A stretch of 64,000 nt of DNA from Fodinibius salicampi (GTDB lineage Bacteria > Bacteroidota > Rhodothermia > Balneolales > Balneolaceae). The stretch spans positions 806,001-870,000 of the forward strand of contig NZ_BAABRS010000001.1 of NCBI RefSeq assembly GCF_039545095.1. The letters run 5' to 3'. A program made the position numbers and the translations under genes. Of the stretch, positions 16,747 to 21,039 are shown one piece after another. Position 1 is the stretch's first letter. Each line of letters opens with the position of its first letter. Below the pieces are notes generated by a model. The model was not told the origin of the DNA. It ran no database searches and worked only from the letters and a program-made list of their open reading frames with translations.

Positions 16747-17607
16747 TTATACTAAAAGCAAGATCGCAATAATTGCAATAGCTATTCCTCCCCACTGTTT
16801 TTGGGACACTATATCGTCCCAGAACCATAAACCCAGAAAGGTTCCTCCCAGTACATTAAGCGTATTAACAATTGGAAATGCTACAGCTCCACTAATCCCA
16901 TCAAGAGCATAGATTAAAAATATAGCTGAATAGAGATTCGGAATACCAATGAGCATACCCATTTTAACCTCTTCCCAGGTGGCTAAAGATCCTTTCCGGA
17001 ATATCGCAAGGACCAGTCCAATGATAAAAGCACTCAAAAAAATCCACGCCATAAATATGGACTCACTAAAAGCGAGGCTAAATTCCTCATTATACACCTT
17101 CAGTGAGGCATCTGCGAAACCGGTAAGCAAAAAGATGATCAGCAACAGCCACGAAGCATCTAAATTACCAATCCTGATATTTCTACCGCGCGAAATAAGA
17201 AGCAAAAGCGCCCCAACTACCAGTACTATACCCAATATTTTAGGTCCGCTCATCACTTCGCTATAAATAATGACGGATAGCAATACCGGAACTAACAGGG
17301 ACAGACGCATAGCCGCTACAGAAATCCCCATTCCATTGGCATGAACGGACTTACTGTAAGCAATAAAATTGCCAATAAAAAAAGCACCAATAACCAGGCA
17401 GAACAATAAAACGGGGACTGACGGTCTGACTACCCATTCTGCCGATTGTTGTTCCGTAAATCCCACTCCAAAAGCCACAATAAATGCAACCAGGTAGTTG
17501 ACCATAAGGGTATTTAGTGTGCGAAGCTTCTTGACCTCAGTAAGCTTCAGCAGGTGTGCTATAAGCAGTGAACAGACAGAACTTAACAAGAGATATAAAT
17601 AAAACAT
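16747..17607 (-). CDS. EamA/DMT-family transporter
   Basis: With the start at ATG 17607 the protein has 286 residues and about ten hydrophobic helices arranged as two repeats, the usual EamA layout. Examples are FYLYLLLSSVCSLLIAHLLK at the N-terminus and GAVAFPIVNTLNVLGGTFLG near the C-terminus. These transporters export small metabolites or act on nucleotide sugars or amino acids; the substrate cannot be told. The start lies one base after the TAA of the upstream lipoprotein gene, which argues for this start over the longer 17646 option that overlaps it. It is the last gene of the greA-to-EamA run and converges with the CcdA-like gene, with 22 nt between stops. Confidence 0.8.
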   Translation of the reverse strand: MFYLYLLLSSVCSLLIAHLLKLTEVKKLRTLNTLMVNYLVAFIVAFGVGFTEQQSAEWVVRPSVPVLLFCLVIGAFFIGNFIAYSKSVHANGMGISVAAMRLSLLVPVLLSVIIYSEVMSGPKILGIVLVVGALLLLISRGRNIRIGNLDASWLLLIIFLLTGFADASLKVYNEEFSLAFSESIFMAWIFLSAFIIGLVLAIFRKGSLATWEEVKMGMLIGIPNLYSAIFLIYALDGISGAVAFPIVNTLNVLGGTFLGLWFWDDIVSQKQWGGIAIAIIAILLLV

Positions 17608-17608
17608 A

Positions 17609-19363
17609 TTATCTTTCCGGAATGAAAAAAGATAACGTACGATCACCGTAGAGCATGGGAGATTGTGAGCGATCGTGAAGGCGTCGGGAAGTGTAAGAAA
17701 TGTTCTGGTTTAAGAGGCTGTATATTTGAATAATATCGGTCCTATGTTGTTGCAACGCCCGGGCAAAAAGATAAGGAAATATATGGTGATTCTTGTCCTC
17801 CGTAGATGAACGGTACAGCCGTGAAGGACGTCCAGGTTCACTTCCCAAAAGAAGAGCAGTATTAGGATCTTCAGTAAAAGCAGAAGCGTGTGATGCCATG
17901 TATTGCTCTACCTGATAATTTGAGAGGCTATCCGGCATACTTATGCTGAAGTCAATATCAGCTAATACCCATTTTTGCTGGGCCGGAATATTACCGAGTC
18001 GGGTTAAAAATGCCTTCAGTGGCAAATCCACTGCTGCATTCGATTCCTGTTCAATATTTTTCAGAAATAGCTCATTACCCTCTTGATCCGCCTTAATAGC
18101 TCCATAGCCGGCTATATAGACAAACAACTCTGTATTCTCATCGGCTGATGAATCTATCTTCTCGATTATATCAAAAACTTGCTGAGGATCATTTATATCC
18201 TTTAAAAAATGAATATTTTCATCCTGATATCCCAAACCATCTTTTAGGTACGCTTCTATTAGCCGGCCGTCTCGGTGAGTGTAGCGACGCTGAGGCAGTG
18301 ATTCCACATAACTTTCGTTTGTAACAATGAGGGCCTGTGCACTTTGTATGTCTTCCCTTAGATGTGGGATATTACTTTCCACATCAATATTACCAAATGG
18401 GACAGTAGGAATGGTAATAATTTCAGTATCTTCTGAGAAGTTAGCCGTTCTCCACTGTATTTCGGCATCATCTCTGCGGATATAGCTTTCAAATATACCG
18501 TATCGCACTTTATACCAATCGTTATTATGTATTCCCTCTACATAAACCTGACTCCCTTCCGCTAACTGTGCCAAAACGTTTTCCGGATTTACGGCTGGCT
18601 CCCTGCGAAGTTCCGTAAAATCTGTATTTACCCGGGCGTAAGGGTCCAGAATAGAAGATACCGGATTCGAATAATGATAGGTTGAATCCTGGAATTCTAT
18701 TTCTACCTCAAACTGTCCTGGTTGAGGATCTGTAAGCTTAAGATCTTCAAATCGGTTGGCAAGTGGAATATTGATTTGTCCTCCACTAATTTGTTCTATT
18801 TCTTCTTCAAAAACCGTGCGATTATTATAAGTTACAGAAACATTAGCTGGAGAAGAGATATTTTTGTCAACACGAACGGTATCGGTTTCGATAAAAGTTC
18901 CGGTATCATTAAGATACCGTTCCTCTCCGACAGGGCGAGGTTCTCCATCGGGCTTAAGATTAAAAAAACCAGAAACGGATAATAATGCACCAATGGTGTT
19001 TAAGGTGATAGACTGCATCCTATTACCTCCGAGTTGGCTCGAATTACCGGCATAAAAGGCGGCTGCTCCACCGGCAAGTCCCAAAATTACAAAACCCGGA
19101 CGCAATCGGTATTCCTGTATCGTACGCTCGACCAAGATTTTCTCGGTATATTGGAAAGTCGTATTTGAAAGTACTTCTAATTTAAGAACGGGATTTTCGG
19201 GTGAAAGGGAATCAGACAGATGTAAAAAGGTTTCTTCATTAAGTACCTTTGAATCTGAGGAATCTACAGCTTCGCGATCCTTTACAACCCATCGGCTGGT
19301 CGTACAAGAAACGGATAGTAGCAAAAAAAATGCTGCAATCGTTATGTGTATTAAGCGTTTCAC
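17609..19363 (-). CDS. Lipoprotein with SH3-like domain and inactive caspase-like domain
   Basis: The 584-residue protein starts with GTG and has a lipoprotein signal ending LLLSVSC (Cys20). A hydrophobic hairpin-like stretch (about 90-135) follows, then a PEGA/carrier-like beta region (about 165-235). An SH3-like segment spans about 243-300 (ARVNTDFTELRREP...DWYKVRYG), and residues about 340-500 resemble the C14 caspase/metacaspase fold (ALIVTNESY, GYQDENIHFLKD, ELFVYIAGYGA, WVLADIDFS). The two catalytic positions are changed. The His of the usual SGHG is Tyr420 and the Cys of the usual DACFS is Asp471. It therefore probably binds rather than cuts. It lies 9 nt after the beta-barrel gene, suggesting the two work together in the outer membrane. 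Confidence 0.75.
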   Translation of the reverse strand: MKRLIHITIAAFFLLLSVSCTTSRWVVKDREAVDSSDSKVLNEETFLHLSDSLSPENPVLKLEVLSNTTFQYTEKILVERTIQEYRLRPGFVILGLAGGAAAFYAGNSSQLGGNRMQSITLNTIGALLSVSGFFNLKPDGEPRPVGEERYLNDTGTFIETDTVRVDKNISSPANVSVTYNNRTVFEEEIEQISGGQINIPLANRFEDLKLTDPQPGQFEVEIEFQDSTYHYSNPVSSILDPYARVNTDFTELRREPAVNPENVLAQLAEGSQVYVEGIHNNDWYKVRYGIFESYIRRDDAEIQWRTANFSEDTEIITIPTVPFGNIDVESNIPHLREDIQSAQALIVTNESYVESLPQRRYTHRDGRLIEAYLKDGLGYQDENIHFLKDINDPQQVFDIIEKIDSSADENTELFVYIAGYGAIKADQEGNELFLKNIEQESNAAVDLPLKAFLTRLGNIPAQQKWVLADIDFSISMPDSLSNYQVEQYMASHASAFTEDPNTALLLGSEPGRPSRLYRSSTEDKNHHIFPYLFARALQQHRTDIIQIYSLLNQNISYTSRRLHDRSQSPMLYGDRTLSFFIPER

Positions 19364-19372
19364 TATTTATAC

Positions 19373-20605
19373 CTAAAGATTTATAACGGCTCCAAGTCCG
19401 ATAACATTGCGAAATTTAAAAGAAGATGCGTCACCCGGATGAGACAACCACAGTGGCAGATCGTAGCGAAGCATAAGTCCGCGATTTTTTCCGAGGTAGT
19501 CGGGAATATTTATTGAAAACATAAAGCCCGGGCCCGCATCTGAAAATAGCGTATTTTGTTCCTCTTCCCTAAGTCCCAATGAGGTACCCGTGTCAAAGAA
19601 CAGGTACGAATGAAGCTCAATAAATTCACCAGCAACGGGAATAGTTTTAATTACTTTATTTAAGGGGTTAGGGTAATCAAGCTCCAGGTTGACGGCGGAA
19701 AATGAGGTATAAAGGGGAGCTGTTCTTTCATTTAATAAATCAATATCCTGATGGGTATATCCGCGAAGGTTTGCATCGCCGGTAACCTGAATGTTACCTG
19801 ATTGCATCCAGGAAGGCGGGATGGTTCCGCGGGCCCGGGTCCATCCACTATTCATCCACTTTCGGCCTGTTTTAAAACTCCTGGAAAAAAGATGTTCCGG
19901 TGCTGTATTTGTTGTCGCCAGACCTGTAAATAAGTGACTATTTAAGGTTACTGATTCAGTGAGCGGTATACGTTGTTTAAAGGTTATCACTGCTTTGGAA
20001 AAATTATTATATTTCCCCAATATATTAGCATCCGCAGATATAGAAAACACATAACGCCCCAGCCTGTTATCGTTGGTTTTCAATAAGTTAACGGATATTG
20101 GAAACAGCCATTCCTGTTGCCATAGCTGAGAATACAACAAGTAACTTTCTTCGAAATGACGTTGGGCATCCATGCCCAGGGAAAGCTCGGTGTAGTTTGT
20201 TTCATCAAATCCCTTTTGCCACCGTTTATTAAAGGAAAGTCCATGGGTTTGGAAGCCGGTACGAAAGGAGCTCCTTCCCCGAATGTTAGCCTCACTACCA
20301 AATTCAGATAGCGAAGGAATAGGCTCAGTAAGGGATATATAATAAGATACAGGATGAGTGGGTATTTTTGTCCCCAACCAGATTCCGGCATCCAGTCTAT
20401 GGGGACCGTCACCAAAGGTGCCGGACATCTGACCTCGTACTCGTCCCCCAACCCGTATACCATCCACACTATTAAACCAAAGGTCAGGCGCAGGAAGAAG
20501 CTCATAGCTCCTATCGTCCTGTGCTATTATAGTGGTGGGCCCGGCAAAGAAGGCAGCAGCGGTAATTAAGACAAAAGATATTATGATTTGTTTGGTATAA
20601 TCCAC
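19373..20605 (-). CDS. Outer-membrane beta-barrel protein (surface-antigen/Omp85-like barrel, no POTRA)
   Basis: The 410-residue protein starts at GTG 20605, which gives a clean signal peptide (DYTKQIIISFVLITAAAFF, cleavage after AQ). The longer frame opening at TTG 20677 lies inside the NUDIX gene and is less likely. After cleavage come alternating aromatic strands: FNSVDGIRVGGRVRG near the start, ANLRGYTHQDID in the middle, and a C-terminal GLMLRYDLPLWLSHP...VIGLGAVINL. These resemble barrel domains found alone or behind M1 peptidases in Bacteroidota. No POTRA domains precede the barrel. It overlaps the NUDIX stop by 25 nt and is followed 9 nt later by the pseudo-caspase lipoprotein. The role is unknown. 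Confidence 0.7.
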   Translation of the reverse strand: MDYTKQIIISFVLITAAAFFAGPTTIIAQDDRSYELLPAPDLWFNSVDGIRVGGRVRGQMSGTFGDGPHRLDAGIWLGTKIPTHPVSYYISLTEPIPSLSEFGSEANIRGRSSFRTGFQTHGLSFNKRWQKGFDETNYTELSLGMDAQRHFEESYLLYSQLWQQEWLFPISVNLLKTNDNRLGRYVFSISADANILGKYNNFSKAVITFKQRIPLTESVTLNSHLFTGLATTNTAPEHLFSRSFKTGRKWMNSGWTRARGTIPPSWMQSGNIQVTGDANLRGYTHQDIDLLNERTAPLYTSFSAVNLELDYPNPLNKVIKTIPVAGEFIELHSYLFFDTGTSLGLREEEQNTLFSDAGPGFMFSINIPDYLGKNRGLMLRYDLPLWLSHPGDASSFKFRNVIGLGAVINL

Positions 20606-21039
20606 TCGTCTAACAATTTGTTTTGAGTTACTATCGAGATTAACAGCTTCATGAGCCGCCGCTGTTCCGGCCACCAAATATAATCAGATATTTGCTCTTT
20701 ACGAATCCACCGGGCTTCTACATGCTCATAATTTAGATTGATTGGGGCTGACTGTGTTGCTATCTCTGCTGCAAAAGCTGGAATTTGCTGAATAGTGTCT
20801 GACTTAACATCGTAAAATTGATTAACGGACGGAAGAGTCCAAAAGGTCTGTGGCTTCCACCCGGTTTCCTCTGATAATTCCCTTTGTGCCGCCTCATATG
20901 CTTTTTCACCGGACTCTACCTTGCCGCCAATCATCCGCCATTGGCCTGCATACATAACGTCCGGCGATCTTTTTAGTATTAGTATTTTTACCTCTTCACC
21001 ACCAGTTCGGTAGGCATAGAGATCAACAAGGCGACTCAT
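20581..21039 (-). CDS. NUDIX hydrolase
   Basis: The 152-residue protein carries a full Nudix box, GKVESGEKAYEAAQRELSEE followed by TGW, matching GX5EX7REUXEEXGU with every metal-binding acid present. It also has the N-terminal VKILILKRSPDVMYAGQWRM typical of NTP or nucleotide-sugar pyrophosphohydrolases. Which nucleotide it cleaves is not determined by the box. Its place just after ugd and UDP-glucuronate decarboxylase makes a nucleotide-sugar or house-cleaning role plausible, but that is inference. It starts 11 nt after the decarboxylase gene and its end overlaps the barrel gene. Confidence 0.88.
   Translation of the reverse strand: MSRLVDLYAYRTGGEEVKILILKRSPDVMYAGQWRMIGGKVESGEKAYEAAQRELSEETGWKPQTFWTLPSVNQFYDVKSDTIQQIPAFAAEIATQSAPINLNYEHVEARWIRKEQISDYIWWPEQRRLMKLLISIVTQNKLLDEWIIPNKS

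Follow-up and report, generated by a model that had tools for sequence, protein, structure and literature searches.

How a caspase fold could be retained in a bacterial envelope protein once its cutting residues have been replaced is the question raised by a gene of Fodinibius salicampi located in the window analysed here (the whole stretch of DNA, 64,000 nucleotides of contig NZ_BAABRS010000001.1). The original prediction, made from the letters of the window, described the product of this gene as a lipid-anchored, caspase-like protein devoid of both catalytic residues, encoded next to an outer-membrane barrel, and suggested for it a peptide-binding or scaffolding role regarded as undescribed. 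Bacterial pseudo-caspases as such are already described: the survey of Klemencic et al. 2019 counts 858 pseudo-orthocaspases among 9,994 bacterial orthocaspases, 90% of the bacterial ones belonging to Alphaproteobacteria and Cyanobacteria, for which a role in photosynthesis was proposed, and 10 among the 1078 sequences of Bacteroidetes, with YS as the commonest bacterial type (PMC6426788). These 10 sequences may include some members of the family analysed below, on which no paper was found in a non-exhaustive search of the open-access literature. The features of the locus are collected in Table 1.

Table 1. Coordinates of the pseudo-caspase gene, its parts and its neighbours in the window
Feature	Position	Strand	Basis
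EamA-type permease, downstream; proposed ATG 17607 (listed start GTG 17646)	16747..17607	(-)	ORF, Pfam
Pseudo-caspase lipoprotein, whole gene, 584 aa, GTG start	17609..19363	(-)	ORF reading
Signal peptide and lipobox Cys20 (residues 1-20), then T-T-S-R-W	19304..19363	(-)	Read from sequence
N-terminal region (residues 21-170), long beta strands and inserted helical hairpin 89-134	18854..19303	(-)	Models, conservation
Beta region of weak conservation (residues 171-236), modelled within a beta-sandwich	18656..18853	(-)	VIA rows Z <=8.3
SH3b domain (residues about 237-306)	18446..18655	(-)	VIA-align Z 10.2; Pfam SH3_3 in 9/48 members
Caspase-fold domain (residues 341-584)	17612..18343	(-)	Pfam, Foldseek, VIA-align
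Arg364-Asp365, place of the N-D or R-D pair in active homologues	18269..18274	(-)	Alignment
Tyr420, place of the catalytic His	18104..18106	(-)	Alignment
Asp469-Ile470-Asp471, place of D-A-C; Asp471 for the catalytic Cys	17951..17959	(-)	Alignment
Outer-membrane-barrel-like gene, upstream neighbour	19373..20677	(-)	Listed TTG 20677; weak sub-threshold BamA match

The caspase fold and its two catalytic sites

The open reading frame contains no internal stop and its 584 codons run uninterrupted from the GTG; codon arithmetic places Tyr420 at 18106-18104 and Asp471 at 17953-17951, exactly as predicted, both being clean codons without frameshift. PF00656 matches the protein as one stretch over residues 344-573 (E 6.2e-6, 26.5 bits for a cut-off of 21.4). 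An AlphaFold2 model of pLDDT 88.1, obtained with a 48-row alignment as input, retrieved the MALT1 paracaspase as top PDB match in Foldseek (3v4o_A, E 2.9e-10, TM 0.69 on the target) and metacaspase-4 as top match in VIA-align (6w8r_B, Z 21.4, rmsd 2.9 over 218 residues, model residues 341-584). The structural comparison with metacaspases proposed along with the original prediction revealed a caspase-like fold, and the protein belongs to the peptidase C14 superfamily by its caspase-hemoglobinase fold (PF00656, Foldseek and VIA). The domain is longer than the region of about 340-500 initially delineated, since the VIA-align match extends to residue 584. MALT1 and the plant metacaspase-4, the closest solved folds, are active enzymes with 13-14% identity.

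Used as a single query against PDB sequences, the window protein gave no match, and the family profile retrieved at best an SH3 chain (E 0.015), the remaining matches being weak. The caspase match in NCBIfam stayed below its threshold (28.6 bits vs 140), and Pfam C14 finds just 25 of the 48 family members at E 0.01; this poor recognition by Pfam may explain why the family was overlooked.

The two catalytic sites were compared with those of C14 proteins outside the family, whose domains were aligned to the family model. These rows are the best profile matches and no random sample; they derive from 11 of the 18 matching genomes of the phylum sample, from G172, G174, G235 (1 of 2 places) and G237 (2 of 3 places) in the class sample, and from G005, G013, G022, G067 and G069 in the order. 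All 22 rows covering both sites have a His aligned with Tyr420 and a Cys aligned with Asp471, and the His is also present in two further rows that do not cover the Cys site. The motifs had therefore been correctly placed, and by this alignment within the confirmed fold Tyr420 and Asp471 occupy the places of the catalytic His and Cys. Variation within the family was assessed on 73 distinct members from the genome sample, after removal of duplicates and of rows with <170 aligned residues; the genomes behind them overlap largely with those of the 48 named loci. Instead of the His-Cys dyad of active C14 enzymes the window protein presents Tyr420 and Asp471, and Cys is found in 0/73 members, so that the loss of both catalytic residues from a lipid-anchored, caspase-like protein is borne out. 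The protein has a p20 domain with His and Cys substituted, the substitution by which pseudo-orthocaspases are defined (PMC6426788); judging from these residues, it is very probably not a cysteine peptidase.

The nearest homologues outside the family are L046, L127 and L128; all three were found in the bacterial family to which the window belongs, and the lead-in preceding the domain is shared as well. Two of them, the active orthocaspases L127 and L128, found in 2/244 class-sample genomes, resemble the window family by their lipobox-like start, their D-I-E-x-x-I-P lead-in and their match to the profile (E about 1e-33), but have His and Cys intact and another N-terminal part. A separate genome of the phylum carries two C14 genes about 1.5 kb apart (L148, 1865-3130 and 4657-6459), both with His and Cys kept; in the first of them, the N-D pair usually seen at site 365 is missing.

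Lipid anchor, N-terminal region and SH3b domain

The protein is organised, in order, as the lipobox, the N-terminal region, a weakly conserved beta part, the SH3b domain, a conserved linker and the caspase domain. Its signal peptide with a lipobox Cys, as read from the sequence, is that of a bacterial lipoprotein, and Cys20 is found in 48 of the 49 sequences formed by the window protein and the 48 named loci, the exception (L094) being a truncated fragment. None of 48 sequences has acidic residues at positions +2 to +6 after the lipid-bearing Cys. In Capnocytophaga, the surface-export signal is given as K-(D/E)2 or Q-A-(D/E)2 (PMC5080379), a rule established in genera of the phylum other than the host's. 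Since the lipobox is present and the known export signal absent, the protein most likely faces the periplasm rather than the surface.

Within the N-terminal region, Trp25, Arg80, Gln83, Tyr85 and Glu147 are invariant in the 48-row alignment. Foldseek gave no match for this region under E 0.001, and the VIA rows beyond SH3b do not exceed Z 8.3, for which a common beta-sandwich arrangement may be the sole reason; the region may yet have a known fold. Residues 89-134 form a glycine-rich hairpin of two borderline hydrophobic helices that might or might not span a membrane, in a protein that is also lipid-anchored; their family mean peak hydropathy over 19 residues is 1.37 for the first helix and 1.17 for the second, values >1.6 being reached in 8/48 and 0/48 members, respectively.

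The SH3-like segment predicted to be joined to the caspase domain is supported by its fold, VIA-align superposing 65 residues (about 240-306) on BT_1314 with an rmsd of 2.5 at the Z score of Table 1. The Pfam SH3_3 match of the window protein is below the cut-off (E 0.078), the members counted in Table 1 being those recognised at E 0.01. Over 38 non-redundant sequences of the 48 members, the mean frequency of the top residue is 0.51 in the N-terminal region, 0.54 in SH3, 0.56 in the linker, 0.42 in p20 and 0.54 in the p10-like half.

Distribution, origin and variation of the family

The family is carried by 45 of 58 genomes (own included), in four of the five sampled families of the order: 31/35 in f1, 1/1 in f2, 9/9 in f3 and 4/4 in f5, with 0/9 in f4. 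A match was obtained in 46/58 genomes, that of G013 being another caspase only, and the gene of one carrier (G042) is cut by the contig end. The f1 genomes without the gene (G013, G018, G025 and G031) are scattered; its absence from these 4/35 genomes and from all nine of f4 indicates that the gene is dispensable. In the class sample, 110/244 genomes match, among which 105 hold the family, all within the order (contig ends truncate some of these genes, and one is reduced to a 65-residue piece), and the match of the other five is confined to the caspase domain. In the phylum sample, 68/394 genomes match, the 20 lying outside the order only from position 311 on. Internal stops are absent among the family matches listed for the relatives and for the class and phylum samples, and the open frames of the relatives share 23-57% identity with the window protein. 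A contig search with the alignment yielded the 48 loci; with the single sequence, no relatives were confirmed. The named hosts include Fodinibius, Aliifodinibius, Balneola, Gracilimonas and Rhodohalobacter, to which are added a few metagenome records with broader or odd titles (Bacteroidetes, Rhodothermia and one Chitinophagaceae); the host names point to Balneolales as the order.

A quick maximum-likelihood tree, built without the two catalytic columns, parts the 73 members from 16 HC sequences with a branch support of 100; 24 of its 86 forks are open and three rows are long (L032, L035 and L045). The Cys state requires one change on this tree, which, if the root is taken to lie among the HC sequences, means a single loss of Cys no later than the base of the family. 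That the family is a caspase fold without catalytic dyad and of single ancient origin is, in our view, almost certain.

The residues that replaced the dyad are not uniform. Position 420 is Tyr or Phe in 50/73 members and His in 15/73, and position 471 is Asp or Glu in 66/73; in the window protein and the 48 named loci, the same positions are Y 33, H 9, F 6, V 1 and D 38, E 3, S 3, N 2, F 2, I 1. The original prediction raised the question of whether Tyr and Asp are fixed in orthologues: Tyr is not, and 471 is mostly acidic. The dyad of the window protein, YD, is found in 34 of the 73 members, followed by HD (15), dyads with Glu (9) and YS (4). Around these sites, Arg364 is present in 72/73 members, Asp365 in 53/73, and position 469 is Asp in 72/73 and Glu in 1/73, the three acids 365, 469 and 471 occurring together in 46/73. 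Asp365 is absent from 15/15 members keeping His and present in 53/58 of the others; the tree requires two changes for the His state and two for the Asp365 state, so this association reflects few events. The acid state at 471 requires five changes. The f3 lineage (e.g. L083-L086 and L088-L091) shows a Y-G-H-[GA] motif with the catalytic His and an Asp for the Cys. Its residue 365 is Thr, Ser or Val, and a complete acidic pocket is therefore not universal in the family.

Alphaproteobacterial and cyanobacterial pseudo-orthocaspases share with the window family a p20 fold in which the dyad is replaced and the acidic pocket largely kept (PMC6426788; SyOC, PMC7889975), and they can also be the only C14 protein of a genome (PMC6426788). 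Deletion of SyOC in Synechocystis is reported there to increase peroxide tolerance (PMC7889975). The window family differs from them in being a lipoprotein that bears SH3b and whose N-terminal region is distinct; export was suggested by the authors for the alphaproteobacterial and cyanobacterial YS type, and the window family is lipid-anchored. The Cys site, mostly acidic here, is Ser, Asn or Ala in those proteins, and the published dyad types YS, YN, YA, FS, QC and HA do not include the YD of the window protein, YS being the type of 4/73 members (PMC6426788). Against the photosynthesis link proposed for the alphaproteobacterial and cyanobacterial types, a link put forward by the authors and not part of the definition of these types, the reaction centre PF00124 had no match in the 58 genomes, the control being positive in Synechococcus elongatus, and such a link was rejected for this family. 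For rhodopsin, neither the own genome nor the control produced a match, and this negative is therefore uninformative. The survey also presents TbMC4, a YS pseudo-metacaspase, and the long form of c-FLIP as inactive caspase folds that serve non-catalytic functions, as would be the case of the window family; they are eukaryotic, act with active partners and are not described there with a lipoprotein stalk (PMC6426788). Bacterial pseudo-orthocaspases being already known, what is new here is the lipid anchor, the SH3b domain, the replacement of Cys mostly by an acid and the lack of a detected reaction centre.

Gene neighbours and proposed role

The pseudo-caspase gene starts 9 nt after the end of the barrel-like gene, and 1 nt separates its stop from the likely ATG of the EamA permease. 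Promoter-like sites are at the level of shuffled sequence (12 vs 13.1). Between 16600 and 22200 of the window, terminator-like sites number 10, for a shuffle mean of 5.0 (sd 2.0), several of them within genes. The barrel probably starts further downstream than the listed TTG 20677, because the listed frame overlaps the nudix gene (20581-20677 in the window) and the matches of several relatives run through a stop. At two other loci, a gene resembling acetate kinase by eye lies directly upstream of the pseudo-caspase and overlaps it by a few bases (L056:6757-7974 and L080:6748-7965).

That most sampled members of the order keep the fold long after losing the cutting residues suggests that the shape is kept for binding rather than cutting, and the peptide-binding or scaffolding role originally proposed appears plausible. 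We take Asp365 and Asp469, by alignment and by the positions of the motifs, as the probable equivalents of Asp95 and Asp211 of TbMC2. In that enzyme the two acids coordinate basic substrates, and cyanobacterial pseudo-orthocaspases are reported to keep them (PMC6426788). The retention of the pocket acids in most members and the acid at the Cys site favour a receptor or scaffold for basic peptides. We therefore put forward, tentatively and as a possible reading, an order-specific pseudo-orthocaspase acting on the periplasmic side as a binding scaffold or sensor for a basic peptide. The caspase domain is joined to a lipoprotein stalk made of the N-terminal region, with its beta strands and helical hairpin, and of SH3b; the Cys was lost once and is now mostly Asp or Glu, with His lost in most lineages. 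A peptide or tail with Arg or Lys would be bound, uncut, in the acidic pocket retained by most members, and the envelope or a partner would be contacted by SH3b together with the conserved N-terminal part.

A further variant, which we consider unlikely, sees the change of Cys to Asp or Glu as a gain: the new acid would complete, with Asp365 and Asp469, a three-carboxylate pocket whose ligand in the envelope could be a cation, polyamine or basic peptide tail. If this were true, a protease fold would have been turned into a periplasmic receptor across most of the order, with no photosynthesis link and usually no active caspase beside it. The main rival to the basic-peptide scaffold is that the caspase fold serves as a rigid platform without ligand, the function residing in the N-terminal region, SH3b and the p10-like surface. 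We judge it somewhat improbable, and several observations agree with it: p20, the half bearing the pocket, is less conserved than the N-terminal, SH3 and p10-like regions, so that a structural role fits as well; Tyr420 and Asp471 rank only 85/258 and 35/258 by entropy; and residue 365 differs between lineages. The near invariance of Asn349, Arg364, Gly419 and Asp469 within p20, added to the acid at 471 in most members, is an excess of constraint for mere filler. The conserved acids at 469 (73/73) and 471 could alternatively endow the old pocket, in combination with other residues, with a new catalytic chemistry; a conserved nucleophile is absent, position 420 is occupied by Tyr, Phe, His and others, and catalysis is hinted at by sequence alone, and we give this possibility very little credence. 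Even less credible is a decaying gene whose substitutions are neutral debris, in spite of the missing dyad and the scattered absences in f1: the carriage of the family by 45/58 genomes indicates that the dyad loss is not local decay, and the frames remain open at the identities given above, the family is held by 105 class-sample genomes, residues outside the dyad are invariant and the Cys changed once and anciently. Gene decay is contradicted by this order-wide conservation.

Two other rivals involve a partner. The outer-membrane-barrel-like gene is adjacent, as noted in the original prediction, and a role as accessory lipoprotein of this barrel would agree with the short spacing in the window, with a barrel match at 38 of the 48 named loci and with the weak likeness of the barrel to BamA (E 0.032, far below cut-off). 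The functional link is weak, and we hold such a role for quite unlikely. Among the 58 genomes, 40 have both genes, five the pseudo-caspase only, nine the barrel only and four neither, the two being thus separable in 14. At 2/4 barrel loci fetched from genomes without the gene, the order is nudix-barrel-EamA, the barrel and EamA matches lying 54 and 66 bases apart (L162, 6349-8924, in the f4 genome G053, and L163, 2164-4667, in the f1 genome G013, respectively), and L160 and L161 have other genes there; conversely, one gene in L056 and several in L085 come between the barrel and the pseudo-caspase. Matches to nudix (40), GreA (38) and SufB (37) at the 48 named loci, some of which are cut by contig ends, are equally faithful, with EamA at 31, and the region may therefore simply be stable. 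The barrel is a stable neighbour and was rejected as an obligate partner. Regulation in trans of an active caspase homologue, as c-FLIP does on caspase-8, appears very unlikely. Another C14 protein occurs in 7/45 carriers, six over the PF00656 cut-off and that of G022 by the family profile only, and the two of the seven that were read, L046 (G005) and L129 (G022), have the dyad intact; neither PF00656 nor the family profile detects another one in the remaining 38/45 carriers, own genome included, although divergent ones could escape. PF00656 having missed at least one C14 protein with an intact dyad (L129 in G022), this absence of active partners is a soft negative. G013, which is without the pseudo-caspase, has three other C14 genes over the cut-off.

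The family is a deep clade of apparently single origin, spread across most of the order, anchored to the envelope and with no reaction centre detected in its genomes. It would show that caspase folds can be kept for a non-proteolytic function in the envelope, and it offers a defined protein, pocket and residues with which such a role can be tested.
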